Both the position numbers and the translations under genes were made by a program. A DNA stretch of 64,000 bases, taken from assembly GCF_016827605.1 (NCBI RefSeq), contig NZ_JAEPJQ010000006.1, forward strand, positions 124,001-188,000, written 5' to 3'. Under the pieces are notes generated by a model, which had not been told where the DNA came from, made no database searches, and was given only the letters and a program-made list of their open reading frames with translations. This stretch comes from Hyunsoonleella ulvae (GTDB lineage: Bacteria; Bacteroidota; Bacteroidia; Flavobacteriales; Flavobacteriaceae). The stretch's first letter is position 1, and the number at the start of each line of letters is the position of its first letter. Below, in pieces: positions 11,297 to 59,632 of this stretch.

Positions 11297-11340
11297 CCAG
11301 ACACAGCAGGACAGTTGTTTGTTTTATTGATGTTAATTTG
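11297..11340 (+). promoter_or_regulatory. CAGGAYA direct-repeat operator and -7 element, GntR gene
   Basis: The 18-bp site at 11297-11314 (CCAGACACAGCAGGACAG) has a strong second half-site and a weak first half-site. A TTAATTTG sequence (11333-11340) lies 18 bp downstream; the other copies have 19. A second -7-like TAATTTTG is at 11353. The site is 116 bp upstream of the GntR start. Confidence 0.6.
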
Positions 11341-11429
11341 TCTTATATCCTTTAATTTTGTAGGTGTTTTTAACAAATCTGATTCTTCAGTTTGTTTTAT
11401 TTTACAAACTTTTTTTAATGTTGTAAATT

Positions 11430-12431
11430 ATGGTTGACAGCAAGGTAAAGCTGAAAAATATAGGTAATAATGATGTTCCTAAGTATAAAAAAATCTTTAA
11501 TGCTTTTAAAGAATCTATAGAAACCAATGCTTTTAAACCTGGAGATAGTATACCTTCCATTAATGAGTTTAGTAAAGATTATAGATTATCTAGAGATACT
11601 GTTTTTAAGGCCTATACTTTATTAAAACAAAAAGGATTTATAAAGTCTACACCAAATAAAGGTTACTATGTTGCTGATAGTAAAATAAAAGTACTTTTAC
11701 TCATAAGTACATTTAAAGCCTATAAAGAGGTATTGTATCACTCGTTCATGCAGAATTTACCAAGTAACGTTATTGTTGATTTTCAATTTCATCATTACAA
11801 TGTAAAGAATTTTAAGTCTATGCTAGATATTGAGGAAGGGGAATATTATAAATACATTATTATGGGTTTTGACCATCCTGAAGTAAAAAGAGCTATTTCT
11901 AAAATTGATAGGAATAGGCTTTTATTAATAGATTGGGATCTGGGTTCTGAAAAAACTAAAAACTACCTTCTTCAAGATTTCGGACAAGGGTTTTATAACT
12001 GTTTAGAGCAAGGGTTACATTTATTTAAGAAATACAATGAAATCAACTTTGTTTATCCTGAGTATACTTATCACCCGTGGGAGAGTGTAGAGTATTTTAA
12101 AAAGTTTTGTGATACCTATGGTATTAAGTGTAGTATTACCAAAAACTCTAAAGACTTGAAAGTGAAACGTCATACCGCATATATAACTGTGAATGATAGA
12201 ATGTTATATGATTTACTCGACCAATGTATTACTGAAGACTTGGAACTTGGTAAGGATGTTGGCTTGCTTTCATATAATGAAACTCCAATCAAGAGGTTTA
12301 TTTACAAAGGTATTACAGTAGTATCAATAGACTTTAAAGAGTTTGGTGCAATAGCAGCAGAGTTTGTTAAAACAGATAACGCCATTAGAAAATTTTTACC
12401 TACAAAATTAATAATAAGAGACTCTTTGTAA
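11430..12431 (+). CDS. GntR-family transcriptional regulator with LacI-like effector domain
   Basis: The protein has 333 residues. Residues ~17-85 are a winged helix of GntR type (PKYKKIFNAF..., PGDSIPSINEFSKDY, LSRDTVFKAYTLLKQKGFI, PNKGYYVA). Residues ~90-330 resemble a periplasmic-binding-protein/LacI sensor fold (KVLLLISTFKAYKE..., IIMGFDHPEV..., LLSYNETPI, GITVVSIDFKEFG), an architecture like that of AraR-type sugar regulators. It probably senses a sugar or uronate intermediate and controls the adjacent catabolic operon. Its own promoter carries a copy of the locus-wide direct repeat, so it is either a member of that regulon or its autoregulated reader. The stop is followed by a 326-bp leader region of the uronate operon. 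The ATG at 11430 gives a complete wHTH; the exact ligand is unknown. Confidence 0.88.
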   Translation: MVDSKVKLKNIGNNDVPKYKKIFNAFKESIETNAFKPGDSIPSINEFSKDYRLSRDTVFKAYTLLKQKGFIKSTPNKGYYVADSKIKVLLLISTFKAYKEVLYHSFMQNLPSNVIVDFQFHHYNVKNFKSMLDIEEGEYYKYIIMGFDHPEVKRAISKIDRNRLLLIDWDLGSEKTKNYLLQDFGQGFYNCLEQGLHLFKKYNEINFVYPEYTYHPWESVEYFKKFCDTYGIKCSITKNSKDLKVKRHTAYITVNDRMLYDLLDQCITEDLELGKDVGLLSYNETPIKRFIYKGITVVSIDFKEFGAIAAEFVKTDNAIRKFLPTKLIIRDSL

Positions 12432-12757
12432 AATCATCTTACTTAGATTCTTTTAGTTGTTAACTACATTACAATCCCAAATCTTACCCTTATAAAGATG
12501 TTTTTTAATATATTGCAAAGCAGGACAGAGCAGGACAGGTTCATTTGCTTTCTTAACTATTTTTGTTTGTAGATAAAATGACTTGATGCCAAGTGTATTT
12601 CTCTAGCTTTAAAGTACGAAAAAGGTAGTTGATAGTACATTTTTCTTAAGCGTTTTAAATAAGTAATAAAGTAATGCTTTTTTTTGTTCTGGAGTTTTAA
12701 ACGAGGATTAAAACAGCTTTAAATATTAAATTAAATAACTGATCAAACCATAACTAA
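12432..12757. other. 326-bp region upstream of the uronate operon
   Basis: This region holds the best-matching copy of the locus operator and its -7 element (12521-12565). About 190 nt of leader then precedes the SDR gene. No terminator, riboswitch-like fold or open frame is obvious in the leader. Confidence 0.6.
12521..12565 (+). promoter_or_regulatory. CAGGAYA direct-repeat operator and -7 element, uronate/TRAP operon
   Basis: The site is CAGGACAGAGCAGGACAG at 12521-12538, two perfect CAGGACAG half-sites with a 10-bp period. A perfect TAnnTTTG element (TATTTTTG, 12558-12565) lies 19 bp downstream. It is likely the promoter of the 12758-22805 operon. Confidence 0.75.
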
Positions 12758-13585
12758 ATGACTAAAACAATAGTATTAACAGGTGCAGGAGGTGTACTTT
12801 GTGGCACATTAGCAAAGGCACTAGCAAAACAAGGACACAATGTGGCTTTGTTGGATCTTAGGAAAGAGGCCGCAGATGAAATTGCAAACGAAATTAATTC
12901 AAGCGGAGGCAAGGCCATAGGCGTTGCTGCTAATGTACTTGAAAAAGAATCATTACAAAATGCTAAAAAGGAAGTTAATGGCGCATTTGGGGATTGCGAT
13001 ATTCTTATTAACGGCGCTGGGGGTAATCATCCGTTAGGTACCACTTCAAATACTCATTTTTTGGAAAGTGATTTAGAAAATAAGGCTGAAGGCTTTAAAA
13101 CATTTTTTGATTTAGATACTAGCGGAATAAAATTCGTATTTGATTTAAATTTTATTGGGACATTATTGCCAACTCAGGTGTTTGCAGAAGATATGATAGG
13201 TAAAGAAGGTTGTAGTATATTAAATATTTCCTCGATGAATGCCTTTACGCCTTTAACCAAAATTCCAGCATACAGTGGTGCAAAAGCAGCAATATCTAAT
13301 TTTACCCAATGGTTAGCGGTTCACTTCTCAAAGGTAGGTATTCGAGTGAATGCTTTGGCTCCAGGTTTCTTTTTAACTGATCAAAATAGATCTCTATTAA
13401 CAAACTCAGATGGAAGTTTAACCCCACGTGGAAATCAAATTATAGACCAAACCCCCATGGGTAAGTTTGGTGAGCCTGAAGACCTTATTGGAACTACGTT
13501 ATGGCTGTGTGGAGAAGGCGCCTCATTTGTGACTGGGGTAGTCATCCCAATTGATGGTGGATTTAGCGCTTATAGTGGAGTGTAA
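12758..13585 (+). CDS. SDR-family oxidoreductase, probable D-mannonate oxidoreductase (fructuronate reductase)
   Basis: This is a short-chain dehydrogenase of 275 residues. It has an N-terminal Rossmann motif (TGAGGVLCG, residues 8-16), an NGAGG motif in place of NNAG, and the catalytic Y172-x3-K176 (YSGAK). The C-terminal GG(F)SAYSGV end resembles SDR-type mannonate oxidoreductases that replace classical UxuB in many Bacteroidota and Thermotogota. The expected reaction is NAD(P)H-dependent interconversion of fructuronate and mannonate, linking UxaC and UxuA, both encoded downstream. It is the first gene of the operon, with its promoter at 12521-12565. Assignment to mannonate rather than another hexonate rests mostly on context. 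Confidence 0.8.
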   Translation: MTKTIVLTGAGGVLCGTLAKALAKQGHNVALLDLRKEAADEIANEINSSGGKAIGVAANVLEKESLQNAKKEVNGAFGDCDILINGAGGNHPLGTTSNTHFLESDLENKAEGFKTFFDLDTSGIKFVFDLNFIGTLLPTQVFAEDMIGKEGCSILNISSMNAFTPLTKIPAYSGAKAAISNFTQWLAVHFSKVGIRVNALAPGFFLTDQNRSLLTNSDGSLTPRGNQIIDQTPMGKFGEPEDLIGTTLWLCGEGASFVTGVVIPIDGGFSAYSGV

Positions 13586-13606
13586 TTTAAAATTTTAAAA
13601 CGCATA

Positions 13607-14575
13607 GTGATTAACGATACAGTAATTTGGGGAATTATTGGTTGCGGCGACGTAGCCGAAGTTAAGAGTGGGCCAGCATTTCAAAAATGTGAAAATTCTA
13701 AACTACTGGCAGTGATGCGTAGAAATGCCAGTTTAGCTGAAGACTTTGCTAAGCGTCATTACGTGCCTTTTTGGTATAGCGATGCTGATAAACTTTTAGC
13801 AAATCCAGATGTTAATGCGGTTTATATAGCAACACCTCCTTCTACACATTTAGAATATGCAATAAAGGCTCTGAATGCTGGTAAACATGTATATATTGAA
13901 AAGCCAATGGTATTAAATGATGCAGAGGCAATTCAATTAGAAGAGGCAGTTGGCAATAGCAATCAAAAGCTAGTGGTAGCGCATTATCGCAGATTTTTAC
14001 CAATGTATGCTAAGGTAAAAGAACTCATAAATACCAATGCCATAGGGGATATAAAGTTTGTAGATTTAAGATTTTTACAGCCTTATAACTTTAATGATAA
14101 AGCCACATGGAGATTAGACGCAGAAGTTTCAGGAGGAGGTTATTTTCATGATATAGCCCCACATCAAATAGATTTAATGTACTATTTTTTTGGAGCATAT
14201 AAAAGAGCAACAGGATTGGCTGTAAACCAATCAAAGATTAATAATGTTGATGATACTGTTAACGGTGTTATAGATTTTAGTAATGGTGTTCAATTTAGAG
14301 GGATGTGGTCTTTTGCTATTCCTGAGTATTTAGAAGAAGATCGCTGCACTATTTATGGAGACAAGGGAACAATTGAAATTTCCTTCTATAAGGAAAAACT
14401 TGTGTTGAACTCGAGTAAAATAAATAAAACTTTCGAATTTAATAATCCAGAGAACATTCAGCAGCCCATGATACAGGAAACAGTTAATTATTTTCTAGGT
14501 AAGCGCAGTAACCCATGTCCTGTTGAAGATGGAAAATTGGTCACAAAATTAATGCAAGAATTTACAAAAAAGTAA
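13607..14575 (+). CDS. Gfo/Idh/MocA-family oxidoreductase, cytoplasmic
   Basis: The protein has 322 residues and starts with GTG at 13607, 21 bp after the SDR stop. It has an N-terminal NAD(P)-binding motif (GIIGCGDVAE, residues 9-18), the family's EKP motif (YIEKPMVLND) and the C-terminal domain motif GGGYFHDIAPHQIDLM with the typical active-site histidine pair. There is no signal peptide, so it is cytoplasmic, unlike the two Tat-exported relatives at 36018 and 37365. Family members oxidise or reduce sugars, inositols and uronates. The operon position suggests a uronate or rhamnose-derivative substrate, which the sequence does not settle. The stop is followed after 10 bp by uxuA. Confidence 0.85.
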   Translation: MINDTVIWGIIGCGDVAEVKSGPAFQKCENSKLLAVMRRNASLAEDFAKRHYVPFWYSDADKLLANPDVNAVYIATPPSTHLEYAIKALNAGKHVYIEKPMVLNDAEAIQLEEAVGNSNQKLVVAHYRRFLPMYAKVKELINTNAIGDIKFVDLRFLQPYNFNDKATWRLDAEVSGGGYFHDIAPHQIDLMYYFFGAYKRATGLAVNQSKINNVDDTVNGVIDFSNGVQFRGMWSFAIPEYLEEDRCTIYGDKGTIEISFYKEKLVLNSSKINKTFEFNNPENIQQPMIQETVNYFLGKRSNPCPVEDGKLVTKLMQEFTKK

Positions 14576-14585
14576 ACAATAAAAA

Positions 14586-15761
14586 ATGGAGCAAACATGG
14601 AGATGGTACGGGCCAAACGACCCAGTATCTTTATCAGATGTAAAACAAGCGGGAGCAACAGGTGTGGTTTCTGCATTACACCATATACCTAATGGTCAGG
14701 TATGGACTGTAGAAGAAATACAAAAGCGAAAAGAAATCATAGAAAATGCTGGTTTAACCTGGAGTGTAGTAGAAAGTATACCAGTACACGAAAATATTAA
14801 AACCCGTTCGGGAGATTTTAAAACTTACATAGAAACTTATAAGCAAAGTATAGAAAATTTAGCCAAATGTGGGATTAATATTGTATGCTATAACTTTATG
14901 CCAGTACTAGACTGGACAAGAACAGATTTAGCCTTTAAAGTAGAGGATGGTTCTGAAGCATTACGTTTTGATGTTACCGCATTTGCAGCATTTGAGTTGT
15001 TTTTGTTAAAGCGACCAGGAGCAGAAAGTGATTATACAGAAGCACAACAATTGGCAGCTAAAGCTTATGCGGATGGATTGTCTGAAGAGGAAAAAACCAA
15101 ATTAGTAAATAACATTATCGCTGGCTTACCAGGAGCAGAAGAAGGATATACATTAGAACAGTTTCAGGGTATCTTAGATACCTATAAAGACATCGATGCG
15201 CAAACATTAAGAGGGAATTTGGTAGCCTTCCTTAAAGAAATTATACCAGTAGCATCAAAAAATGATGTGTTGATGTGCATACACCCTGATGACCCTCCAT
15301 ATCCAATTTTAGGATTACCAAGAGTAGTAAGTACAGAGGCCGATTATGCATACTTATTTGATAACGTGCCAGATTATGCTAATGGTATTACGTTCTGTAC
15401 AGGGTCTTTAGGTGTTAGGGCAGATAATGATTTAGTTAAGATTTTTCAGCGCTTTGCTGATAGAACACATTTCTTGCATCTAAGAAGTACAAAACGTGAT
15501 GAAGCAGGTAATTTTTATGAAGCAGATCATTTAGATGGTGATGTAGATATGTATGGTGTAGTAAGAGCTGTTTTAGAAGAAGAAAAACGAAGAAGGGCAG
15601 AAGGTAGAACAGATACTGCGATACCAGTAAGACCAGACCATGGACATCAAATGTTAGATGATCTAAATAAGAAAACCAACCCAGGATATTCAGGTATAGG
15701 TAGATTAAGAGGTTTGGCAGAAATACGCGGTTTAGAATACGGACTAAAACACATTATATAA
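14586..15761 (+). CDS. uxuA: Mannonate dehydratase
   Basis: This 391-residue protein matches the UxuA family in length and N-terminus ([13 protein letters not shown]..., [15 protein letters not shown]). It has the conserved metal-site segments [25 protein letters not shown] and VRPDHGHQM. It dehydrates D-mannonate to 2-keto-3-deoxygluconate in the cytoplasm, using Fe2+ or Mn2+. It sits between the Gfo/Idh/MocA gene (10 bp gap) and kduI (18 bp gap). Together with uxaC and the SDR it makes a complete glucuronate-to-KDG branch. Confidence 0.96.
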
Positions 15762-15779
15762 ACGATAATCACTAGAGTT

Positions 15780-16622
15780 ATGAGCACAAATTACGAAACG
15801 AGATACGCATCGAGCCCACAAGCAGTAAAAAAATATGATACACAGGAGTTAAGAGATGAGTTTTTAATACCAGATTTAATGCAGAAAGATAACATTAAAT
15901 GGGTATACACACATTATGATAGGTACATGGCAGGAGGTGCAATGCCAACAGCCGAAGCATTGTCTCTAGAAACAATAGATCCTTTAAAATCTGAATTCTT
16001 TTTAGAACGAAGAGAATTGGGGATTATAAATGTAGGTGGTGCAGGAACTATTGTAGCAGATGGAGAAACGTTTACTATGGCACACAAAGATGCCTTGTAC
16101 CTTGGTAAAGGCGTAAAAGATGTAGTTTTTAAAAGTGATGATGCTAATAAACCAGCAAAATTTTACATGAATTCGGCACCAGCACATACATCTTACCCAA
16201 CAAAACATGTAGCTAAAGTAGATGCTAACAAAATTGAACTTGGAAGTTTAGAGACTGCGAATCATAGAACCGTAAGTCAAATGATTATCGGTGGTATTGT
16301 AACAACTTGCCAATTGCAAATGGGGATGACAGAACTTAAAACAGGCTCTGTTTGGAATACAATGCCATCACATGTTCATGATAGAAGAATGGAGATTTAC
16401 TATTATTTAGATATTATGGATGAACAGGCAGTTTGTCACTTTATGGGAGAACCACAGGAGACACGTCATATATGGATGCAAAATCACGAAGCAGTAATTT
16501 CTCCACCATGGTCTATCCACTCAGGATCAGGAACTTCAAACTATACCTTTATCTGGGGAATGGCAGGAGAGAATTTAGATTATGGCGATATGGATGTTGC
16601 TAAAATAACAGAATTACGATAG
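15780..16622 (+). CDS. kduI: 5-keto-4-deoxyuronate isomerase (4-deoxy-L-threo-5-hexosulose-uronate ketol-isomerase)
   Basis: The protein has 280 residues, the usual KduI length. The zinc-binding cupin ligands are visible: H198 and H200 in HVH, E205, and H247 in PPWSIHSG. It isomerises DKH/DHU, the spontaneous rearrangement product of unsaturated uronate released by lyase plus GH105, to 2,5-diketo-3-deoxygluconate. Its presence therefore implies lyase-based polymer breakdown. It is followed after 3 bp by kduD, so the two are translationally close. Confidence 0.97.
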   Translation: MSTNYETRYASSPQAVKKYDTQELRDEFLIPDLMQKDNIKWVYTHYDRYMAGGAMPTAEALSLETIDPLKSEFFLERRELGIINVGGAGTIVADGETFTMAHKDALYLGKGVKDVVFKSDDANKPAKFYMNSAPAHTSYPTKHVAKVDANKIELGSLETANHRTVSQMIIGGIVTTCQLQMGMTELKTGSVWNTMPSHVHDRRMEIYYYLDIMDEQAVCHFMGEPQETRHIWMQNHEAVISPPWSIHSGSGTSNYTFIWGMAGENLDYGDMDVAKITELR

Positions 16623-16625
16623 GCT

Positions 16626-17420
16626 ATGAGTATCTCTTTATTTGATATAAAAGGCAAAATAGCCTTAGTAACGGGAAGCACACACGGTCTTGGTATGGCG
16701 ATGGCAAGAGGCTTAGGTTTGGCAGGAGCAACTATAGTTGTTAACGGAAACTCATCTCAAGAAAAAATAGATAAAGCCGTAGCGCAATACAAAAGCGAAG
16801 GTATTAATGCTGTAGGTTATAAATTTAATGTAACCAACGAAGCAGAAGTAAGTGCAGCTATATCTAAAATTCAAGAAGAAGTAGGGCGTATTGATATACT
16901 AATCAACAATGCGGGGATTATAAAAAGAACTCCTCTAATAGATATGGAGGTTGCCGACTTTAAACAAGTTATAGATGTAGATTTGGTAAGTCCTTTTATA
17001 GTGTCTAAACATGTTGTGCCAGCTATGATAGAGCGAAAAGCAGGTAAGGTTATAAATATTTGCTCCATGATGAGTGAATTAGGGCGTAACAGCGTAGGCG
17101 CTTATGCAGCTGCAAAAGGTGGTTTAAAAATGCTCACACAAAATATGGCTACAGAATGGGCAAAGCATAATATCCAAGTAAATGGTATAGGGCCAGGGTA
17201 TTTTGCCACATCGCAAACCGCACCAATACGTGTAGATGGACACCCATTTAATGATTTCATAGTAAACAGAACACCAGCAGCCAAATGGGGAGACCCAGAT
17301 GATTTAGCTGGGGCAGCCATATTTTTGTCATCTAAGGCTAGTGACTTTGTAAATGGTCAAGTAGTATATGTAGATGGCGGTATTTTAGCGACCATAGGAA
17401 AACCATCTAACGAAGATTAA
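16626..17420 (+). CDS. kduD: 2-deoxy-D-gluconate 3-dehydrogenase / 2,5-diketo-3-deoxygluconate reductase
   Basis: This SDR of 264 residues has the cofactor motif TGSTHGLGMAMA (residues ~16-27), an NNAG motif, and the catalytic Y160-x3-K164 (YAAAK). The C-terminus DFVNGQVVYVDGG is typical of KduD. It reduces the KduI product to 2-keto-3-deoxygluconate. The gene ends 1 bp before the start of the DUF4861-like gene. KduI, KduD and UxuA all deliver KDG; the kinase and aldolase for KDG are not in the window. Confidence 0.95.
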   Translation: MSISLFDIKGKIALVTGSTHGLGMAMARGLGLAGATIVVNGNSSQEKIDKAVAQYKSEGINAVGYKFNVTNEAEVSAAISKIQEEVGRIDILINNAGIIKRTPLIDMEVADFKQVIDVDLVSPFIVSKHVVPAMIERKAGKVINICSMMSELGRNSVGAYAAAKGGLKMLTQNMATEWAKHNIQVNGIGPGYFATSQTAPIRVDGHPFNDFIVNRTPAAKWGDPDDLAGAAIFLSSKASDFVNGQVVYVDGGILATIGKPSNED

Positions 17421-17421
17421 T

Positions 17422-18600
17422 ATGAAAACAACACCAATATTCGCATTACTTACACTTTGCTTAGCGTTTTTTAATTGTAAAAGCGAGTCGGGACAGATTG
17501 TAACTGTAAAGAACACTTTAGATATATCACGGAGTTTTGAAACTGTTGAGATTAATGTATCTGATATAATTTTATCGCAAGATGAAAGTATTGAGGGTAT
17601 TGGAGTTGTAGATGTTGAAACAGGTAATGTGTTAGTTTCCCAGCTCATTGATGAAGATCAAGATGGGAGTGCTGATGCGTTATTGTTTCAAACAGACATT
17701 GATGCCAATTCAGAAAAAAGATTTAAACTATTACAAGTTGAAGCATCATCCAGACCAGATGTAAAAGAATATTGTTATTCTAGATTTGTACCAGAACGTA
17801 CTGATGATTACGCGTGGGAAAACAATAAGGTGGCATTTAGAACCTTTGGGCCTGTAGCGCAAAAAATGAAGGAAGATGGTGTTAAAGGAGGTACGCTTTC
17901 TAGTGGTATTGATGCTTGGTTAAAACGTGTAGAGTATCCTATAATCAATAAATGGTACAAGCGTAATGATGAAAAATTAGGAGCTTACCATTATGATATA
18001 GGAGAAGGTTTAGATAACTTTCATGTAGGTGTAAGTAGAGGCGTAGGTGGTTTGGCAGCAAAAATAGACACCACTTATTATGTGTCTAAGAATTTCACAA
18101 AATGGACAACCATTGCAACTGGACCAATACGTACAAGCTTTATATTAGAATATGCTAATTGGAATGCGAATGGTAGTCCTATTTCAGAGACCAAGCATAT
18201 TTCTTTAGATTATGGAAGTAATTTATCTAAATTTGAGGTAGAACTATCCGGTGTTGAAACTATTTATGCGGGGTTAACACTGCATGAAAAAGATGGTAAT
18301 GATACTCAAAACACCAAGGCAGGCTACATTTCTTACTGGGAGCCACATGGCGATTCTGAATTAGGGACAGCGATAGTTGTACCTAATGGAAATATGATAT
18401 CTTCAGAATTGTTTGATACTCCAGTTAAAGATTGGAGCAACTTATATGCAAACATAAAAATAGATGAAGGTAAAGTAGTTTACTACGCTGGATTTGGTTG
18501 GAAAAAAGCAAAAGAGTTTACTACCGAAGCAACATGGAATAATTATTTAGAAACATTTGCAAAAAAAGCAAATAACCCGTTGGTGGTTACCTTGAAATAA
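17422..18600 (+). CDS. DUF4861-like lipoprotein
   Basis: The protein has 392 residues. The N-terminus is a lipoprotein signal with the cysteine in AFFNCKSES. The body resembles the DUF4861 family often found beside polysaccharide lyases and KduI/KduD: recognisable segments are the VDVETG...DEDQDGSADALLFQ opening, RFVPERTDDYAWENN, and DNFHVGVSRGVGGLA. A predicted beta-sandwich rich in aromatic residues would suit carbohydrate contact. It starts 1 bp after kduD, so it is co-transcribed, although its product is exported to the periplasm or outer membrane while its neighbours are cytoplasmic. No biochemical function can be assigned from the sequence; a role in handling unsaturated uronates is only inference from context. 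Confidence 0.75.
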   Translation: MKTTPIFALLTLCLAFFNCKSESGQIVTVKNTLDISRSFETVEINVSDIILSQDESIEGIGVVDVETGNVLVSQLIDEDQDGSADALLFQTDIDANSEKRFKLLQVEASSRPDVKEYCYSRFVPERTDDYAWENNKVAFRTFGPVAQKMKEDGVKGGTLSSGIDAWLKRVEYPIINKWYKRNDEKLGAYHYDIGEGLDNFHVGVSRGVGGLAAKIDTTYYVSKNFTKWTTIATGPIRTSFILEYANWNANGSPISETKHISLDYGSNLSKFEVELSGVETIYAGLTLHEKDGNDTQNTKAGYISYWEPHGDSELGTAIVVPNGNMISSELFDTPVKDWSNLYANIKIDEGKVVYYAGFGWKKAKEFTTEATWNNYLETFAKKANNPLVVTLK

Positions 18601-18608
18601 AGCACTAA

Positions 18609-20024
18609 ATGAAATCAACTAAATTTATAACAGATAATTTTATATTACAATCAGATATTGCAGTACAACTGTATCATGAGTATGCTAAAGATTTACCAAT
18701 TATAGATTATCACAATCATTTATCACCACAAAAAATTGCAGAAAACCAGCCTGTTAAAAATATTACGGATGCATGGTTAGAAGGAGATCATTATAAGTGG
18801 AGGGCAATGCGAGCCAATGGTGTCGAAGAAATTTTTATCACAGGTTCTGCTACTTCAAAAAAAGAAAAGTTTTTAAAATGGGCAGAAACTGTTCCTTATA
18901 CCTTAAGAAATCCTTTGTTTCATTGGACACATTTAGAGCTTGAACGTTATTTTGGGATAGATGATGTGCTGCAACCAAACACAGCAGAGACTATTTATGA
19001 AACAGCAAATGCAGTTCTAGAAAATAAAACACCAGCTCAGCTTTTGGAAGATATGAAAGTTGAAGTAATCTGTACTACAGATGATCCTATTGATGATTTA
19101 AGATATCATAAAGAAATATCAGAAAAAGGGTTTTATACTAAGGTGTTTCCAACGTTCAGACCAGATGCGTTATTATTTATAGAAAAAGAAAACTTTAGTG
19201 CCTACATAAGTAAATTATCGGGGTGTGTTGGGTTTTCCATAGAGTCATTAGATGATTTATTAAAAGCTATAGAAAATAGGGTTTCGTATTTTGATGCAGC
19301 AGGTTGCCGTTTGTCTGATTATGGGATGGAAGAAATATATGCAGCAGATTTTACAGAAGCAGAAGCAGATACCATATTTAAGAAACGACTATCAGGAAAT
19401 AAAATTTCAAAAGATGATGTTAAGCTATACGCATCATGTGTTTTGGATAAGTTATGTAAAATGTACCATGCTAAGGGATGGACACAACAGTTTCATGTGG
19501 GAGCCATAAGAAATAATAATGATAGGTTATTAAACCAAATAGGTTTAGATGCGGGTGTAGATTCTATTGGGGATTTTCCAGCGGCTAAGTCTATGTCTAA
19601 ATTATTTAATAGATTAGATAGCACAAATCAATTAGCAAAAACAATTTCATATAATTTAAACCCTTCGCAAAATGAAGTGTTTGCTACCATGATGGGCAAT
19701 TATAGTGAAGGGGGTACACCAGGAAAAATGCAATGGGGGTCTGGCTGGTGGTTTTTAGATCAAAAAGACGGCATGGAAAAACAGATCAACTGTTTATCTA
19801 ATATGGGGTTGTTAAGTCGATTTGTAGGAATGCTAACCGATAGTCGAAGCTTTTTATCTTTTCCTAGACATGAGTATTTTAGACGTATCTTGTGTAATAT
19901 TCTTGGCGAAGATGTCAAACAAGGACTCATACCTAACGATTTGGAATTTTTAGGAAAGATGGTACAGGATATATGTTATTACAATGCAAAAAACTACTTC
20001 GGTTTTAGTAATTACCGAAAATAA
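18609..20024 (+). CDS. uxaC: Glucuronate isomerase
   Basis: This 471-residue protein is of usual UxaC length. It has the amidohydrolase-like metal motif DYHNHLSP near residue 33 and the conserved segments KVFPTFRPDALL, QFHVGAIRNNN, FPAAKSMSKLF and GSGWWFLDQKDGM. It interconverts D-glucuronate and D-fructuronate (or galacturonate and tagaturonate) in the cytoplasm. Glucuronate and iduronate are ulvan constituents, and the SDR plus UxuA in this operon complete the path to KDG. The gene precedes the TRAP transporter by 7 bp. Confidence 0.97.
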   Translation: MKSTKFITDNFILQSDIAVQLYHEYAKDLPIIDYHNHLSPQKIAENQPVKNITDAWLEGDHYKWRAMRANGVEEIFITGSATSKKEKFLKWAETVPYTLRNPLFHWTHLELERYFGIDDVLQPNTAETIYETANAVLENKTPAQLLEDMKVEVICTTDDPIDDLRYHKEISEKGFYTKVFPTFRPDALLFIEKENFSAYISKLSGCVGFSIESLDDLLKAIENRVSYFDAAGCRLSDYGMEEIYAADFTEAEADTIFKKRLSGNKISKDDVKLYASCVLDKLCKMYHAKGWTQQFHVGAIRNNNDRLLNQIGLDAGVDSIGDFPAAKSMSKLFNRLDSTNQLAKTISYNLNPSQNEVFATMMGNYSEGGTPGKMQWGSGWWFLDQKDGMEKQINCLSNMGLLSRFVGMLTDSRSFLSFPRHEYFRRILCNILGEDVKQGLIPNDLEFLGKMVQDICYYNAKNYFGFSNYRK

Positions 20025-20031
20025 ATAAGAC

Positions 20032-21003
20032 ATGAGAAAAACACTTGCAATCTGTTTACTTTTTTTAGTGGTTTTATCCTGTAAGAAGGATGAAAACAAA
20101 AAGGTACTCTATCTGGCCCATACCTTGCCTCAAACACATCCTGTTCATAAAGGGATTGTAGAATTCCAAAAGATATTAAATAAGAAATCTAATGGCGAGC
20201 TAACAATTAAAATATTTCCTGATGCACAATTAGGTTCAGAGCGAGAAGTTTTAGAACTGTTACAAATTGGTAGCGTGGCTATTACTAAAGTAAGTGCGGC
20301 AACATTATCTAATTTTGTGCCAGAATACCATGTGTTGGGAATTCCGTATCTGTTTAGAGATAAACAACATATGTTTGATATTTTAGAAGGGCCAGTTGGT
20401 AAATCCATATTAGAAAAAGGGGAGAAATTTTGGCTACGTGGTTTATGTTATTATGATGCAGGAAGTAGAAGTTTTTACACTTCTAACAAAGCGGTAAGAA
20501 CCCCTGAGGATTTAAAAGGGTTAAAAATTCGTGTTATGAACAATCAAATGGCTATAAATATGGTAAACTCATTGGGAGGTGCAGCCACACCAATGGCTTA
20601 TGGTGAGTTGTATACGGCAATACAACAAGGTGTTGTAGACGGAGCCGAAAATAATCCGCCATCATTTGTGTCATCCAATCATTACGAAATTAGTAAGTAC
20701 TATACACTGGACGAACATTCCTCAGTGCCAGATGTTTTATTGATAGGGACAAAACAATGGGAAAAATTATCCGATCAAGAGAAAACTTGGGTGCAAGACG
20801 CAGCTAATGAGTCTGCTCAAGCTCAAAAACAGTTCTGGAAAGCATCGGTTGATGAAAGTATGAAAATAGCTAGAGAAGCTGGTGTGGAGATTATAATTCC
20901 TGAAAAATCTTTATTTGCAGAAAAGTCAAAATCAGTCTTGGAAGAGTTTAAAAAAGAACATCCAGAGCTAATTCAACTGGTTAAGGATATAAAATCTAAT
21001 TAA
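20032..21003 (+). CDS. TRAP transporter solute-binding lipoprotein (DctP family)
   Basis: The protein has 323 residues and the DctP fold signature: LAHTLPQTHPVHKG, FPDAQLGSEREVLE, the carboxylate-binding arginine in LKGLKIRVMNN, and QQGVVDGAENNPPSF. It binds an organic acid in the periplasm and hands it to the DctQM permease encoded next. The N-terminus ends in a lipobox (VVLSC), so it is probably membrane-anchored rather than freely diffusing. Context in a KduI/UxaC/UxuA operon points to glucuronate or an unsaturated uronate as ligand. It lies 3 bp upstream of the small permease gene. Confidence 0.93.
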   Translation: MRKTLAICLLFLVVLSCKKDENKKVLYLAHTLPQTHPVHKGIVEFQKILNKKSNGELTIKIFPDAQLGSEREVLELLQIGSVAITKVSAATLSNFVPEYHVLGIPYLFRDKQHMFDILEGPVGKSILEKGEKFWLRGLCYYDAGSRSFYTSNKAVRTPEDLKGLKIRVMNNQMAINMVNSLGGAATPMAYGELYTAIQQGVVDGAENNPPSFVSSNHYEISKYYTLDEHSSVPDVLLIGTKQWEKLSDQEKTWVQDAANESAQAQKQFWKASVDESMKIAREAGVEIIIPEKSLFAEKSKSVLEEFKKEHPELIQLVKDIKSN

Positions 21004-21006
21004 AAT

Positions 21007-21498
21007 ATGAGCACGTCTACATCTATATTTAGTAAAGTAGTCAAGTTTATGGAAGTATTCTTGATTATCATATTCACGCTTCTGGTTTTTGATGTGTTGT
21101 TTCAAGTGTTTTCAAGATACGTATTAAAAGCTTCGTTTTCATGGACAGAAGAGTTGGCTAGGTTTTCATTAATCTGGATGTCTATTTTAGGCGCAGCATA
21201 CCTAAATGCTAAAAGAGAGCATTTATCAATGGATTTTCTTTACAGGAAATTTTCAGACAAGACGAAAAAGAAAGTATCCATCCTCATAGAAGTATTTATC
21301 TTTTTGTTTGCATTAATTGTTATGGTAATAGGAGGTTTAAACCTTGTATATACCACGTTGCATTTAGGACAATTATCAGGGACGTTGCGCATCCCTCTAG
21401 GATATATTTATGCCATTTTACCATTTAGTGGTTTACTAATTATGTGGTTTTCAATTATCCATATAACACAAATTTCTAAAAACCAATTAACCGACTAA
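21007..21498 (+). CDS. TRAP transporter small permease (DctQ family)
   Basis: This 163-residue membrane protein has four predicted transmembrane segments, including VFLIIIFTLLVFDVLFQV and VFIFLFALIVMVIGGL. The DctQ motif SFSWTEELARFSLIWM lies around residue 45. It scaffolds the large DctM subunit in the inner membrane. It lies tightly between dctP-like (3 bp) and dctM-like (2 bp) genes. Confidence 0.92.
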   Translation: MSTSTSIFSKVVKFMEVFLIIIFTLLVFDVLFQVFSRYVLKASFSWTEELARFSLIWMSILGAAYLNAKREHLSMDFLYRKFSDKTKKKVSILIEVFIFLFALIVMVIGGLNLVYTTLHLGQLSGTLRIPLGYIYAILPFSGLLIMWFSIIHITQISKNQLTD

Positions 21499-21500
21499 TC

Positions 21501-22805
21501 ATGAGTATAGAAGTAATAAGTATAATAGTTCTGTTTGCTAGTTTTTTTGTGCTTTTAATGCTTAAAGTGCCAGTGGCGTACAGCATTGGTATTTCAACAA
21601 CACTTAGTTTGTTATTAAATATAGATAAGCTACCAGGTCTTACTACTATTGCCCAACGAATGACAACGGGCATAGATAGTTTTGCGCTTTTAGCAATTCC
21701 GTTTTTTGTGTTAGCGGGAGAAATCATGAAACAAGGCGGTATCGCCAATAGACTCATTAATTTTGCAAAATCGTTGGTAGCTAGCTTACCAGGAGGTTTG
21801 GCCTACGTAAATGTATTGGCTTCTATGTTGTTTGGAGCTATTTCAGGAAGTGCAATTGCAGCTACTTCAGCTATTGGTAGTATCATGACCGATAGGATGG
21901 AAGAAGAAGGCTATCCAAGAGAATTTAGCGCTTCAGTAAATATTACATCATCAACAACAGGATTGTTAATTCCACCAAGTAATATTTTAATAGTTTATGC
22001 TTTAGCTAGTGGAGGTACTGCCTCTGTAGCGGCTTTATTCATTGCTGGTTACCTGCCGGGGATTTTGTTAGGTTTAGCGCTTATTGGATATATCGTTTTT
22101 GTAGCCATAAAACGTAAATTTGCAAAAGGCCAACGTGCTACATTAAGAGAGGTATGGAGCCATTTCAGAAAAGCATTCTTTAGTTTATTAATGCTTGTTA
22201 TTGTTGTAGGGGGTATTGTGGCAGGTGTTTTTACAGCTACAGAAGCTTCAGTGATAGCAGTTTTATACGCAGCCATACTTGCACTTATTTATAAAGATGT
22301 GACTTTAAAAAGTTTTCCTAATATATTATTGAATAGTGCCAAGACTACCGCAGTAGTAATGTTTTTAATTTGTACATCTATGGCAATGAGTTGGTTGTTT
22401 TCATTTGAAAGTATTCCTGCGTTAATGAGTAACTTCTTATTAGAACAATTTAGTAGTAAGTTTGCTATATTTCTTGTTATCAATTTAACATTATTAGTTA
22501 TAGGAACTTTTATGGATATGACTCCAGCAGTGTTAATATTTACGCCTATTTTCTTACCAGTGGTTATGGCATTGGGCATGGATCCGGTACATTTTGGTAT
22601 TGTTTTGGTGCTTAATTTATGTATTGGCTTATGTACGCCACCAGTGGGAACTATACTTTTTGTGGGAAGTGGTATAGCCAAGGTTTCGGTATCTCAAGTT
22701 GTGAAACCGTTATTACCATTTTTACTAATTATGGTAATAGTTCTGTTTTTAATAACATATATTCCAGAAATTTCTATGTGGTTACCTGGATTATTTGAGT
22801 TGTAA
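21501..22805 (+). CDS. TRAP transporter large permease (DctM family)
   Basis: This 434-residue polytopic membrane protein has the DctM signatures: KVPVAYSIGIS, the SFALLAIPFFVLAGEIM segment, LFGAISGSAIAATSAIGS, and TPPVGTILFVGSGIA near the end. It performs sodium-driven uptake of the acid bound by the DctP-like protein. It is the last gene of the operon that starts at 12758. A 22-bp perfect hairpin lies 121 bp after its stop. Confidence 0.95.
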   Translation: MSIEVISIIVLFASFFVLLMLKVPVAYSIGISTTLSLLLNIDKLPGLTTIAQRMTTGIDSFALLAIPFFVLAGEIMKQGGIANRLINFAKSLVASLPGGLAYVNVLASMLFGAISGSAIAATSAIGSIMTDRMEEEGYPREFSASVNITSSTTGLLIPPSNILIVYALASGGTASVAALFIAGYLPGILLGLALIGYIVFVAIKRKFAKGQRATLREVWSHFRKAFFSLLMLVIVVGGIVAGVFTATEASVIAVLYAAILALIYKDVTLKSFPNILLNSAKTTAVVMFLICTSMAMSWLFSFESIPALMSNFLLEQFSSKFAIFLVINLTLLVIGTFMDMTPAVLIFTPIFLPVVMALGMDPVHFGIVLVLNLCIGLCTPPVGTILFVGSGIAKVSVSQVVKPLLPFLLIMVIVLFLITYIPEISMWLPGLFEL

Positions 22806-23143: not shown

Positions 23144-23188
23144 CAGTATAGTACAGGATAGTTAAACTGCTAATATGTTGTAAAATTG
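23144..23188 (+). promoter_or_regulatory. CAGGAYA direct-repeat operator and -7 element, SusCD operon
   Basis: The site is CAGTATAGTACAGGATAG at 23144-23161. TAAAATTG (7 of 8 to TAnnTTTG) at 23181-23188 lies exactly 19 bp downstream. The first susC start is 70 bp further on. Confidence 0.7.
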
Positions 23189-49679: not shown

Positions 49680-49685
49680 GATATA

Positions 49686-50883: not shown

Positions 50884-53800
50884 TTGAAAGTGATTAAATT
50901 TAATGATATAAGCTTTTTGTTTATTGTATTCCTAATATTTTTTGGGGAAGCACAAAATGATATTTATAAGTTTAATCATATTACAGATGCCAATGGTTTA
51001 TCTCAAAATTCTGTAATAGCTATGCATCAGGATAAACTTGGTCAAATGTGGATTGGTACCCGAGATGGTTTAAATAAATATGATGGTGAGCAATTTACAG
51101 TTTTCAAACATGAAAAAAATAATCCAAATTCAATTACGAATAATAGTATTCTCTGTATTGAAGAAGATAGAAATGGTTTTATTTGGGTAGGGACGTCTTT
51201 TGGACTTAATCGCTACAATCCAAAAAAAAATGAGTTTAAGGCTTATTTTGTTAATAAGCAACGCACATTTATTGGAAGTAACATGATTTCAGTAGTCAAA
51301 GAAATGGCTAATGATGCAATATGGATAGGTTCAGCTAGCGGTATTTCAATTTACAATATACAAAAGGATGAATTTGAAAGTGTATTGGAAAAGAAGAATA
51401 TTACTTCGGTTTTAGAAACAAAATCAGGGAAAGTCATTGTTGGGACTACTAGTGGACTATTAGTTTTAGATGATAAAACAAGAAGCTTATTTAATTTTCA
51501 CACTGTAGCAGGAACAGAAAATTTAGATATTCAAGATATAGTTGAAAGTAATAGCGGTAATATTTTAATCGCTACAAAAAACGAAAGTATATTAGAATTT
51601 GAAATAACTAAAAATAGTATAAAACCTTATTTTGATAAGGCTTTATTAAAAGGAAAAAGTAAGAATGTTAGAAGTCTACTTTTTGATGATCTAGGGCATT
51701 TATGGTTAGCTACCTATAATGGACTTCAAATATCCAGTGATAGAAACAAATTGATGGTACTCTACAGTGATGATAATGATGAAAAATCTATCAATGATAA
51801 TTTTATAAAAACCTTATTCAAAGATAATATTGGAGTTTTATGGGTAGGTACCTATTATGGAGGGGTAAATATTTGTAGTGATTTTAATAAAAATTTTATC
51901 AATATTACTCAAAAATATTCAAAAGCAGGTCTTAGTTTTAAGGTCGTAAGTTCTTTAGTTAATTATAAAAATCTGTTATTTATTGGTACTGCAGGTGGGG
52001 GTATTTCTGTTTTAAATAATGAGAATAATTCCATAGAGCACATAAATACAAAAAACTCTAGAGCTTTAAAAAGTGACAATATAAAATCTTTATGTATAAC
52101 AAATGATGACAAACTTTGGATAGGTACATTTGAAAATGGTGTAGCTATTTATAATTTAAAAACGAAGTTATTTGAGGAGTTACCTTTTTCAGAGAAATTA
52201 AAAGCGCTTTTAAAAGATGTTGGAGTATTAAGTTTATCACAGTATGATAGTAATTATATGCTAATAGGAACAAATGTTTCAGGCTTAATAAAATATAATA
52301 TAAGACAAAATACGTATAGGGTTTTTAGTAGTTATTCAAAGACTTCTGCGCTTACAAATGGAAATATAAAAACTATTCATGTTAGCAAGAAAGGAGATAT
52401 TTTAGTAGGAACGTTACGAGGTTTAAATTGTATTTCAGCAGACGGAATAGTTACCAATTATATTTATTCTAAGGACCTCAAAATAAAATTTGAAATCACT
52501 TCAATTTATGAAAGTCAAAATGATGTATTATGGATTGGTACAGCGGAGGATGGACTTTTTAAATTTGCAAACAATCAATTTGAGCCTATTCATTTAAAGG
52601 TAAATAATGAAGATATAAATGCAATTCGAGGTATAGTTGAGGCTGAGTCAGGCCATGTTTGGATAAGTACCTATACACAAGGGTTAATAAAATTTGATCT
52701 TGCTCAAAAAAAAATAGTATTCCACTATACCAAAAAAGATGGACTTCCGAGTAACCAATTTAATCGAGATGCGTATTTAAAAATTGGAGCCTCCTACTAT
52801 TTTGGAGGACCATCTGGTGTAACATTTTTTAATGAAAAAAACTTAATAAAAAATAATTATGCACCACAGGTTATCATTACTGATTTTAAAATTAAAAACA
52901 ATTCCGTTGATGTTAATGAAGATCAAAATATCATTGAGACCGCTATAAGTTATACAAGAGACATTGAATTGGCATATAATCAAGGTAATTTTAGCCTAAA
53001 GTTTGCAATGCCAAACTTTATCAATTCTTCAAGTAATAGTTATTTGTATAGGTTGCAAGGTTTAGAAAATGATTGGGTAGAAACTTCTACTAATGTAGCG
53101 TCATATACCATACAGAAATCAGGCGATTATAAATTCGAGGTAAAGGGTGTAAATAGCGATGGAGTAATAAATAAAATACCAACCACTTTAAACATCATAG
53201 TAAAACCGGCACCATGGGCAACATGGTGGGCATATAGTCTATATGGTCTTTTAATTATAGGGACATTATACTATTTGTATAATACTTTAAAATCGAAAAC
53301 AAAACTTAAACATCAACTAGAATTAGAGCATGTTAAGACAGAGCAGATTGAAAAGATAAATAAATCTAAACTAGAATTTTTTACTAATATATCTCATGAG
53401 TTTAGAACTCCTTTAACCCTGATTTTGGGGTCTTTACAACAAGTTTTAGATGATTATCAAGGGAGTAGTAAAATGTTTAAGAAACTTAAAGTAGTAGAAA
53501 GCAGCTCTAATCAATTGTTAAAACTGATTAATAGATTGATGGACTTCAGGAAGTATGAGAATAGAGTAATGAAACTCGAAGCTGCAAAAGGCGATATTGT
53601 TAATTTTGTTGAAGAGATTTATTTGTCATTTTCAGAATATGCTAAAGAAAAAAAATATACTTATAACTTCTCTACCTCTGCAAAGATTATAGATTTATAT
53701 TTTGATAATGCCAAGTTAGAGCGCGTATTTTACAACCTTATCTCAAACGCATTCAAATATACCCCCAAAGGAGGGAAAATAAATGTAGAAATAGAAGAAC

Positions 53801-54945
53801 AGGAGAAACTTGTGCTAATTTTAATAAAGGATACTGGAATTGGTATACCTACGCAATTTAGAAGTAAAGTTTTTGATCGTTTTTTTGAAATATCAGAGCA
53901 TAAATCAAATAATGAGCATAATCAGGGTACTGGAATAGGTCTTTCAATAGTTAAAAGCATAATAGATTTACATAAAGGAACAATTCATATTTCAGAACAA
54001 ACTAAAACTACTGGTACTGTTTTTACTCTAGAACTGCCAAAAGGCAAAACCCATTTAAAAAGTAGTGAAATTGTTGAAGACTTTAAGCAAGGAGAGGATG
54101 TTTCTTATTATCAAAGTCAACTTAAAGCTATAAATGCATCTCATTTGGATGAAAACTTCTTTAATAAAACCCCACCACAAGATAAAGCTTCAATTCTTAT
54201 TGTAGAAGATAATAAGGAGCTGAGAACTTTTATACGCAATCTTTTGAACTCATATTACAATGTTTATGAGGCTGGAAATGGAAAAGAAGGGTATAAAATG
54301 GCCATAAAACACCAGGTAGATCTTATAATTAGTGATGTAGTCATGCCTATAACTAGTGGTACTGAATTATGTGCTATGATTAAAGAAGATATAAGAACAA
54401 GCCATATCCCAGTAATTTTATTAACCACACGTTCTGCTTTGGTTTATAAACTAGAAGGCTTGGAAACAGGTGCTGACGACTATATAAGCAAACCTTTTAA
54501 TCTTAAAGAATTTAAATTAAGAATATCTAATATACTGGCATCAAATCAACGACTAAAGGACAAAATAAATGCTAATGAGATCTTAAAACCAGAAGATATG
54601 GTAATGTCCTCTATGGATGAGGAGTTGTATAAGAAGGCATTAAATATTGTTGAGAAAAACTTAGGTAACGATACTTTTGATATTCCTTATTTTTGTGAAG
54701 AGTTAGGTGTTAGTAAGTCCGTTTTATATATTAAGGTAAAAGCTTGGACAGATTTTACACCTAAACAATTTATAGTTCATTTAAGACTAAAATATGCAGC
54801 TCAACTTCTTGAGCAAGGTAAAATGAATATAAATGAAGTTAGCCGTAAAGCTGGTTTTAAAAATCAGAAATACTTTGCAAAGATCTTTAAAAATAAGTTT
54901 GGAAAAACTCCAAGCGATTATGCTCAATCTTTTACAGAATTTTAG
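50884..54945 (+). CDS. Hybrid two-component system regulator (HTCS), sensor plus AraC-type output
   Basis: The protein has 1353 residues and starts with TTG at 50884, which puts a signal peptide (...FLFIVFLIFFGEAQ) at the N-terminus. The periplasmic half is two seven-bladed propellers made of Reg_prop repeats (WIGTRDGLNKYDG, WVGTSFGLNRYNP...), then a Y_Y_Y domain (~715-775) and one membrane segment (~778-798). The cytoplasmic half holds HisKA with phosphoacceptor H838 (NISHEFRTPL), an HATPase with the GTGIGLSIVKSI box, a receiver with D1151 (LIISDVVMP), and a C-terminal AraC/HTH_18 domain (~1255-1350). Such proteins sense oligosaccharides in the periplasm and activate their own locus. It lies between a terminator and the 55116 gene and is a leading candidate reader of the CAGGAYA sites. 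Confidence 0.96.
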   Translation: MKVIKFNDISFLFIVFLIFFGEAQNDIYKFNHITDANGLSQNSVIAMHQDKLGQMWIGTRDGLNKYDGEQFTVFKHEKNNPNSITNNSILCIEEDRNGFIWVGTSFGLNRYNPKKNEFKAYFVNKQRTFIGSNMISVVKEMANDAIWIGSASGISIYNIQKDEFESVLEKKNITSVLETKSGKVIVGTTSGLLVLDDKTRSLFNFHTVAGTENLDIQDIVESNSGNILIATKNESILEFEITKNSIKPYFDKALLKGKSKNVRSLLFDDLGHLWLATYNGLQISSDRNKLMVLYSDDNDEKSINDNFIKTLFKDNIGVLWVGTYYGGVNICSDFNKNFINITQKYSKAGLSFKVVSSLVNYKNLLFIGTAGGGISVLNNENNSIEHINTKNSRALKSDNIKSLCITNDDKLWIGTFENGVAIYNLKTKLFEELPFSEKLKALLKDVGVLSLSQYDSNYMLIGTNVSGLIKYNIRQNTYRVFSSYSKTSALTNGNIKTIHVSKKGDILVGTLRGLNCISADGIVTNYIYSKDLKIKFEITSIYESQNDVLWIGTAEDGLFKFANNQFEPIHLKVNNEDINAIRGIVEAESGHVWISTYTQGLIKFDLAQKKIVFHYTKKDGLPSNQFNRDAYLKIGASYYFGGPSGVTFFNEKNLIKNNYAPQVIITDFKIKNNSVDVNEDQNIIETAISYTRDIELAYNQGNFSLKFAMPNFINSSSNSYLYRLQGLENDWVETSTNVASYTIQKSGDYKFEVKGVNSDGVINKIPTTLNIIVKPAPWATWWAYSLYGLLIIGTLYYLYNTLKSKTKLKHQLELEHVKTEQIEKINKSKLEFFTNISHEFRTPLTLILGSLQQVLDDYQGSSKMFKKLKVVESSSNQLLKLINRLMDFRKYENRVMKLEAAKGDIVNFVEEIYLSFSEYAKEKKYTYNFSTSAKIIDLYFDNAKLERVFYNLISNAFKYTPKGGKINVEIEEQEKLVLILIKDTGIGIPTQFRSKVFDRFFEISEHKSNNEHNQGTGIGLSIVKSIIDLHKGTIHISEQTKTTGTVFTLELPKGKTHLKSSEIVEDFKQGEDVSYYQSQLKAINASHLDENFFNKTPPQDKASILIVEDNKELRTFIRNLLNSYYNVYEAGNGKEGYKMAIKHQVDLIISDVVMPITSGTELCAMIKEDIRTSHIPVILLTTRSALVYKLEGLETGADDYISKPFNLKEFKLRISNILASNQRLKDKINANEILKPEDMVMSSMDEELYKKALNIVEKNLGNDTFDIPYFCEELGVSKSVLYIKVKAWTDFTPKQFIVHLRLKYAAQLLEQGKMNINEVSRKAGFKNQKYFAKIFKNKFGKTPSDYAQSFTEF

Positions 54946-55930: not shown

Positions 55931-56009
55931 TGTTTAAAGGATATTTTGTTTTAAGTTTATGAACAAGAAACGCTATTTGTTAAAAAATGTCAAAGAAAAA
56001 TGAAACGCT

Positions 56010-58658: not shown

Positions 58659-58659
58659 T

Positions 58660-59361
58660 ATGAAAAAGTCATATTTATATTTAGTATTAATTACTAATGT
58701 TTGTTTGTCATGTAATAGTGGAGGGGCAGATGATGACAATGAATCAAACCTTGTTAACACTGCTCCCACTATTCCTGTACAAATATATCCATTGAGCAAT
58801 ACTTTATGTATTGATAATAACGTAATTTTTGAATGGAATGCTTCTACAGATAACGAAGGAAATACGATAACTTATAGAGTTGAAGTATCTGAACAAAGTG
58901 ACTTCTCTTCGTTAGCATATGATGTCTCAAGTTCGTCAACGTCTAGAATTATTAGCTTAGAGAAAGGAAAATCGTATTATTGGCGGCTAAAATCCAGAGA
59001 TAGTAAGGGAGAGGAAAGTGCATATTCTACCGTTAGTCAATTCCTTACTGAGGGAGACGGTATTTCAAATCATTTACCATTTGCACCAAGTTTGGTTGAG
59101 CCTGCTTTGAATGCTGAAATTGATGGTACGAGTACAACACTTAGTTGGTCTGCTAGTGATGTGGATAACGATAGTTTAATTTACGATGTGTATTTAGATA
59201 CAGATAGTGATCCAACAACAAAAGTTTCAGAAAATCAATCTGAAACAACATATAATGCTACCGGTTTAGCAGCAGCTTCAACTTACTATTTTAAAATAGT
59301 TGTAAAAGATGGAAATGGAGGAACCACTATAGGTCAAATTTGGAGTTTTACGACTCAATAG
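58660..59361 (+). CDS. FN3-domain lipoprotein
   Basis: The protein has 233 residues with a lipobox in NVCLSCNSGG and an acidic linker (GADDDNES) after the cysteine, which favours surface display. Two fibronectin type III-like domains follow: ~35-130 (APTIPVQIYPLSNTL...YYWRLKSRD) and ~138-233 (PFAPSLVEPALNAEI...YYFKIVVKDGNGG). There is no enzymatic motif. It is coupled to the beta-helix gene (1 bp gap) and may be a surface glycan-binding or scaffold partner for it. Confidence 0.78.
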   Translation: MKKSYLYLVLITNVCLSCNSGGADDDNESNLVNTAPTIPVQIYPLSNTLCIDNNVIFEWNASTDNEGNTITYRVEVSEQSDFSSLAYDVSSSSTSRIISLEKGKSYYWRLKSRDSKGEESAYSTVSQFLTEGDGISNHLPFAPSLVEPALNAEIDGTSTTLSWSASDVDNDSLIYDVYLDTDSDPTTKVSENQSETTYNATGLAAASTYYFKIVVKDGNGGTTIGQIWSFTTQ

Positions 59362-59587
59362 GTAGTTTATTAATTCAAAACTAACTTGTCCAAATAATTA
59401 AATCTACAGTAGTTTTGTTTTTTGATAATGCTTAATTGATTTTAGCTTTATCATGTATTGCTCCTTCTTGCCTAAAGATTAGACTATAGTTTATTTAGGA
59501 GTTATAAAGAAATGCTGATTTATTCATTAGTAAGTAAAAAATCAGTATTTTATCAAATGGTTTTTTATTCGTGGAATTTTAGTAAAT

Positions 59588-59632
59588 CAGGATAATACAG
59601 GACACTGCTTTATCTTTAGAAAACTAATTTTA
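59588..59632 (+). promoter_or_regulatory. CAGGAYA direct-repeat operator and -7 element, second sulfatase
   Basis: The site is CAGGATAATACAGGACAC at 59588-59605. TAATTTTA at 59625-59632 lies exactly 19 bp downstream. The sulfatase start codon is 20 bp further on, so the leader is very short. Confidence 0.72.

Follow-up and report, generated by a model that had tools for sequence, protein, structure and literature searches.

A fixed-phase tandem repeat as candidate operator of AraR-type GntR regulators at ulvan and rhamnose genes of Hyunsoonleella ulvae

The locus discussed here is a window of 64,000 nucleotides from Hyunsoonleella ulvae (contig NZ_JAEPJQ010000006.1, positions 124,001 to 188,000, analysed at its full length), and the question it raises is which protein reads an 18-bp direct repeat that stands before seven of its genes. 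Ulvan, a main polysaccharide of green tides, is made of rhamnose, uronic acids and xylose. The switching of marine polysaccharide loci is known in few cases, and hybrid two-component sensors are often assumed to be responsible. A prediction made from the letters of this DNA alone (the original prediction) took the repeats for class II activator sites at a set distance from a TAnnTTTR promoter box, favoured the AraC-type output domain of a hybrid sensor as their reader, and named a GntR protein as the alternative. We conclude from sequence comparison that the 18-bp element is probably the operator of AraR-type GntR regulators controlling the use of ulvan and its sugars. What was compared is the site, its 19-bp distance to the promoter, its conservation across species, the genes downstream, and its co-occurrence with two GntR clades, A and B; from these we infer binding, ligand, sign of regulation and which paralogue acts where.

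When both strands of the 64 kb were searched with the pattern CAGGAYANNRCAGGAYAG at up to two mismatches, the seven predicted sites were recovered at their predicted positions, all on the + strand, with no others. Two have no mismatch, four have one and one has two, and the shuffled window gave a mean of 0.11 matches with a maximum of 2. A position matrix trained on 16 of the 22 matches in the organism's own genome, the seven window sites included, scored these seven at 20.1 to 28.3, the next match in the window (13.0) overlapping one of them. Each site precedes a gene start, with 47 to 219 bp between the end of the site and the ATG. Along the window, the candidate operators stand before the GntR gene (11297..11314; pattern match and box scan, with a half-site and a box at a gap of 18 to 20 bp in relatives), the uronate/TRAP operon (12521..12538; pattern match and box scan) and the first SusC gene (23144..23161; pattern match), where the 18-mer is identical to that of the rhaD promoter in this genome. 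The other four, each resting on pattern match, box scan and domain scan, precede a DUF1080-type (3-keto-disaccharide hydrolase) operon (34478..34495), a sulfatase-GH78 fusion gene (40036..40053), a GH43 gene (45949..45966) and a second sulfatase (59588..59605). The 45949 site falls within a mechanically called open reading frame (ORF) with a TTG start; the GH43 domain agrees with the ATG at 46051.

Frequent matches at unrelated genes, the outcome that the original prediction had named as fatal to it, were not seen. With up to two mismatches allowed, the pattern occurs 22 times in the whole genome (4.06 Mb in 23 contigs) and its reversal 5 times. Of the 22 matches, 7 are in the window, 11 on contig C16 and 4 elsewhere. 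Ten of the C16 matches lie between 456 and 591 kb and one at 351.8 kb, and 17 of the 22 fall within the window locus or C16:456-591 kb.

The distance to the promoter is nearly constant. Six window sites have at least five of the six defined TAnnTTTR positions exactly 19 bp downstream (N19), and the site at 11297 has four of six at N19 and five of six at N18, in agreement with the gaps of 19 and 18 bp originally read from the sequence. In the uronate operon, for instance, the box scan places a TAnnTTTG box at 12558..12565 (+ strand), 19 bp past the operator. With a window background of 0.023 per position for a box of this quality, six of seven sites sharing one gap has p of about 1e-9, or 4e-8 over 40 gaps, positions being taken as independent.

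The matrix scan of related loci that had been proposed as a check was carried out on loci fetched from relatives, which were picked for holding sites or GntR genes, the gap playing no part in the choice. At a matrix score of at least 19, and with sites within 60 bases of the stored start of a locus or 80 of its end dropped, it gave 131 distinct sites in genomes other than this one; where registers of an array overlap, each was tallied as a site. A box with at least five of six positions stands at N19 in 100 of the 131, against a mean of 4.4 at other gaps, and an exact box in 66, against a mean of 0.47; 31 have no N19 box. With look-alike flanks removed, the N19 box is found at 88 of 118 sites.

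In a flavobacterium with mapped promoters, the box of the primary sigma factor lies at -12 to -5 (PMC9723704), and the site would therefore cover -49 to -32, the region expected to hold the -33 element. TTG occupies the -33 position in 0 of the 100 sites with an N19 box. A fixed promoter distance overlapping the -33 region is thus found here as in class II activation, and the strict distance together with the lack of a separate -33 element suggests an activator touching the polymerase; to this extent the class II-like placement of the original prediction, with the site replacing a -33 element, gains support from the fixed phase. A fixed distance to a downstream box could also be expected if the word were itself the -33 element of an alternative sigma factor, but that box is the primary-sigma TAnnTTTG box (PMC9723704) and the repeat tracks a GntR gene family, which leaves the sigma reading hardly credible.

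The consensus of 113 anchored sites (13 from this genome) is CAGGAYAGWRCAGGAYAG, with a nearly invariant proximal CAGGA, an invariance that comes partly from the score cut-off, just as the box comes from how the set was chosen. Besides the 10-bp period there is a 5-bp period inside the repeat, CAG-GA-YAG-WR-CAG-GA-YAG, for which the self-match over the 113 sites is 0.57 at lag 5. It is 0.80 at lag 10, and no other lag between 1 and 12 exceeds 0.30. A description by two 8-bp half-sites as the sole unit is too simple because of this second period. Arrays beyond two half-sites were also considered and set aside: extra half-sites occur at -10 in 4 of the 113, at -20 in 3 and at -21 in 2, the third half-site at -10 being too infrequent to support them, and the 19-bp gap of the last copy was preset by selection. 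Four-half-site arrays at the 10-bp period were observed in L165 (G006:C1) and L129 (G013:C12).

GntR proteins usually bind a GT..AC palindrome, and extra half-sites 7 to 12 nt from such palindromes have been reported, a layout that the present site resembles (PMC4494728). No palindrome across the site as a whole was found among the 113 sites. One subclass, with T at position 4, reads GTAYAGTAC, which resembles the GntR-type GT..AC palindrome (PMC4494728). TA at positions 9-10 accompanies this T in 8 of 13 non-rhaD sites, several of whose promoters look orthologous, against 9 of 82 sites with G.

To see which genes lie behind the sites, we took the 123 sites whose box lies at N18, N19 or N20 and followed them to 117 downstream genes (16 from this genome; 5 sites without an ORF and 1 duplicate were dropped) and scanned all 117 in one Pfam family search, from which counts for 25 of 43 families are available. 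Matches were obtained to sulfatase (15), TonB plug (11), class II aldolase of the RhaD type (11), PL28 ulvan lyase (10), short-chain dehydrogenase (10), BNR_4 (8), ulvan-lyase beta-trefoil (5), 3-keto-disaccharide hydrolase (5), GntR (5), GH88 (3), CCG (3), FBPase (2), GH43 (2) and RhaT (1). The CCG genes look like LutA by sequence inspection. LutA would handle L-lactate, an end product of rhamnose breakdown. In the window, the profile scan assigns the operon at 12758..22805 (+ strand) to uronate catabolism (mannonate oxidoreductase, UxuA mannonate dehydratase, KduI and glucuronate isomerase) with a TRAP transporter. The C16 region combines sulfatase-like and other glycan genes with an L-rhamnose operon, in which the RhaD-dehydrogenase TIGR02632 scores 935 bits against a cut-off of 568; the rhamnose isomerase-like protein scores 506 bits, below its cut-off of 647, and the rhamnulokinase match is weak. 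Judged by these gene families, the sites mark one ulvan regulon (lyases, sulfatases, SusC, and the uronate and L-rhamnose operons) and not unrelated promoters, and the single regulon originally proposed for the ulvan locus is supported, as is its fixed phase to a TAnnTTTR promoter.

Several details of these targets may be recorded. The sulfatase and GH78 alpha-L-rhamnosidase at 40142-43672 of the window are fused as one protein of 1176 aa. In G009 (L161), lutA-like and rhaT-like genes, named mostly by sequence inspection, stand back to back with two sites between them, and L154 likewise has back-to-back operators, one before a lutA-like gene and the other before a divergent gene. In L097 and L100, from two species, a candidate operator precedes genes resembling fructose-1,6-bisphosphatase (the two FBPase matches), which suggests, by gene likeness, that gluconeogenesis has been drawn into the regulon.

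The protein we consider the candidate reader is encoded directly behind the first site, at 11430..12431 (+ strand), and was characterised by domain scan, tree and predicted structure as a regulator of the GntR (PF00392) plus Peripla_BP_3 type belonging to clade A. Its N-terminal winged helix matches PF00392 with 38.7 bits (cut-off 27) and its C-terminal LacI/GalR-type effector domain matches PF13377 with 33.6 bits (cut-off 26.5). The predicted structure (pLDDT 87.9) matches LacI-family sugar regulators, and this model-based likeness suggests an internal sugar or sugar derivative as the signal. This genome has three GntR paralogues with the winged helix: the window protein, one divergent from rhaD, and a third on C16, whose Peripla_BP_3 match (25.2) is just below the curated cut-off of 26.5. 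In a tree of 51 GntR proteins, 15 fall in clade A (the window type), 19 in clade B (the rhamnose type) and 12 in clade C, with 5 outliers. The recognition-helix region reads SRDTV(F/Y/E)KAY in most clade A/B members and SRDTV(L/I/M)xAF in most of clade C.

The sites follow clades A and B across species. Among the 119 genomes compared, which are related, so that statistical independence is overstated, and for which A/B classes and counts were assigned by hand from tables, sites at up to one mismatch number 115 in the 23 with clade A or B (at least one in 22 of 23) and 25 in the 96 without (at least one in 17), where the reversed pattern gives 10. Outside the genus the numbers are 42 sites in 13 A/B genomes and 23 in 94 without. 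In the 700 bases ahead of the GntR gene, the top-scoring site outscores every one of 60 composition shuffles for 21 of 34 clade A/B entries (10 of 15 in clade A and 11 of 19 in clade B, with two entries from this genome), against 0 of 17 others, and clade C genes in particular have no such site nearby. A proximal half-site with a box of at least five of six positions at N18 to N20 precedes the clade A gene in 10 of 10 cases (the genus and G055).

The rhaD promoter offers the clearest comparison. In this genome, one C16 site sits between rhaD and the divergent clade B GntR gene. The gene rhaD occurs in 22 genomes, and its promoter can be read in 21, that of G013 being off the contig and left out. 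A site scoring at least 13.6 with a box of at least five of six positions at N19 is present in 18 of the 18 readable clade B genomes, most bases around it differing between them. Where the GntR protein is more distant, the full site is found in 0 of 3 promoters: G031 keeps the proximal half with an N19 box, and the rhaD promoters of G035 and G048 have no such site.

These patterns make the GntR protein, originally only the alternative, the better candidate, as the sites track clades A and B, though in this genome any of three A/B-type paralogues could serve. Would the hybrid sensor do as well? The sensor with AraC-type output lies at 50884..54945 (+ strand; domain scan and relatives search), and hybrid sensors are indeed present in both the window locus and the C16 cluster. 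The AraC domains of three such sensors are 48 to 62% alike and the DNA-binding domains of the three GntR proteins 42 to 60%, which would on that ground permit a shared reader of either kind; domain likeness as a means of choosing between them does not discriminate and was dropped. The predicted motifs of Bacteroides hybrid sensors are direct repeats averaging 21 bp apart (PMC3878776), but the period here is 10 bp, with 5 bp inside. The matrix scan of the window placed no site before the sensor gene itself. Full-length relatives of the window sensor (E<=1e-300) occur in 12 of the 119 genomes, in a survey of relatives of this one sensor with the five best candidates scored per genome, and on the same footing 12 of the 23 A/B genomes have no such relative, among them G004 and G009 with nine sites each; presence of this sensor thus does not run with the sites. 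In the 20 kb that contain the rha operon of this genome no ORF exceeds 958 aa, so that no sensor as large as that of the window is encoded there. With sites that follow GntR clades A and B, stand at the rhaD promoter of every readable clade B genome and occur in genomes with no close relative of the window sensor, the reader originally favoured is not supported, and we regard an AraC-type output domain as very improbable in this role. A second hybrid two-component sensor spans the end of the window (61568-64000 and on; G000:C20:185568-189590).

Several observations weigh against a GntR operator acting as proposed. As clade B genes mostly lie next to rhaD, the co-occurrence of the two is confounded. 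The genomes without clade A or B still exceed the reversed pattern (25 sites to 10), with three sites in G115 alone, and G028 has clade A but no site at up to one mismatch. No shuffle-beating site precedes the GntR gene in 13 of the 34 clade A/B entries, 5 of the 15 in clade A among them, and the best score is below 9 in 7 of the 19 clade B entries, where rhaD is at least 1.5 kb away or on another contig. At the 42 to 60% given above, this genome's three GntR paralogues are no more alike in their DNA-binding domains than the three hybrid sensors are in their AraC domains, and likeness of this kind does not favour GntR. That TTG is missing at the -33 position follows largely from the sequence of the site. 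As to the sign of regulation, relatives repress: in Bacillus, AraR represses through a palindromic operator. Likewise by analogy, the GntR protein AusR represses the alginate genes of Zobellia, according to a review (PMC8286568).

Under the GntR activator reading, which we still consider probable, the GntR protein would bind a sugar or intermediate derived from ulvan, which for clade B would be rhamnose; the sugar-bound protein would occupy the site at about -49 to -32, standing in for the missing -33 element, and would there contact and activate RNA polymerase. In this genome the site may be common to the window GntR protein, of clade A, and two paralogues of the clade B type. The same AraR-type reader could instead be a repressor, blocking RNA polymerase at -49 to -32 until a sugar releases it, and AusR at the Zobellia alginate genes (PMC8286568) is a precedent. 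A repressor needs no fixed distance, yet N19 is common to 100 of the 131 sites, and no -33 element is left for an unaided polymerase, though that absence is, as said, largely imposed by the site. We consider repression from this position unlikely.

A different placement, which favours repression, is seen in five loci with a distant clade A protein at their head, where related repeats lie near the start codon. In 3 of these 5 operons the repeat stands exactly 5 bp past a promoter-like box, against 1 of the 113 anchored sites, and by its placement this is a repressor position; of the other two, L077 has a box of five of six positions at N19 downstream. In four of the five loci, genes of the xylulokinase and xylose isomerase type lie alongside, and the fifth, G072, resembles these; in a profile check of two xylose-type loci, the isomerase was above its cut-off and the kinase below. 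As such, the position of the site may decide the sign of regulation. This genome's own xylose operon has no site in the 900 bases examined. We put forward, as a tentative proposal that may well prove wrong, that marine flavobacteria possess soluble GntR sensors of the AraR type, for rhamnose, ulvan and xylose, sharing one 5/10-bp tandem-repeat operator vocabulary, in which the repeat would activate from 19 bp before the box at rhamnose and ulvan genes and repress from just after it at xylose operons. The galactose type has no site of this kind close by.

More widely, L074-L078, L191 and L197-L200 have a distant clade A GntR gene at the head of, or next to, genes of the xylulokinase and xylose isomerase type; the repeats there, CGGAACAGAACAG or CAGAACAGAACA, lie close to the start codon. 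A role of clade A as a uronate sensor had been suggested by the uronate operon downstream and was not retained, distant relatives heading genes of the xylulokinase and xylose isomerase type. The clade C GntR protein of this genome (L225, 7790-8782) lies beside galK-like and galT-like genes, so named by sequence inspection, and a sugar transporter.

Among known systems, the Bacillus subtilis AraR subfamily differs in that its repressor acts on a palindromic operator, unlike the present tandem repeat at a fixed activator-like position. It is alike in architecture, in which a GntR winged helix is followed by a sugar domain of the LacI/GalR type (PMC4494728). AusR of Zobellia galactanivorans is likewise a GntR protein over a scattered glycan regulon of a marine flavobacterium, but is described as a repressor of alginate genes (PMC8286568). 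The MocR subfamily (GabR, TauR and PdxR) offers direct-repeat operators and activation (PMC5320631), but has an aminotransferase-like sensor domain, of which the Pfam scan of the window GntR found none. RhaR and RhaS of other groups control rhamnose genes, and the sites of DeoR-type RhaR are direct repeats of 10-11 bp, but these are AraC, DeoR or LacI proteins, and the paper makes no mention of the word GntR (PMC3870299). The hybrid two-component sensors of Bacteroides share direct-repeat motifs at glycan genes and differ in their 21-bp average spacing and protein family (PMC3878776). In open-licence literature, surveyed by titles and abstract beginnings, there was no report of this operator, of this regulon, or of ulvan or rhamnose genes under a GntR regulator in Bacteroidota.

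An operator defined by sequence with a fixed promoter distance makes for a testable ulvan regulon, tied to rhamnose catabolism, and CAGGACAG-type sites are an example of the candidate operator sequence for clade A/B GntR proteins. It also offers an inducible promoter design for flavobacteria. Under the tentative proposal of a shared operator vocabulary, two or three paralogues on one operator would let separate ulvan sugars drive a single regulon, and an internal monosaccharide, not an external oligosaccharide, would decide when the whole ulvan programme runs.

Elsewhere in the window, positions 3060-10895 (- strand) encode a protein of 2611 aa with an N-terminal part that is carboxypeptidase-like by sequence inspection, followed by a unit of about 50 residues (KPADDVTNATICSGETYTW...) that recurs more than 20 times almost unchanged.

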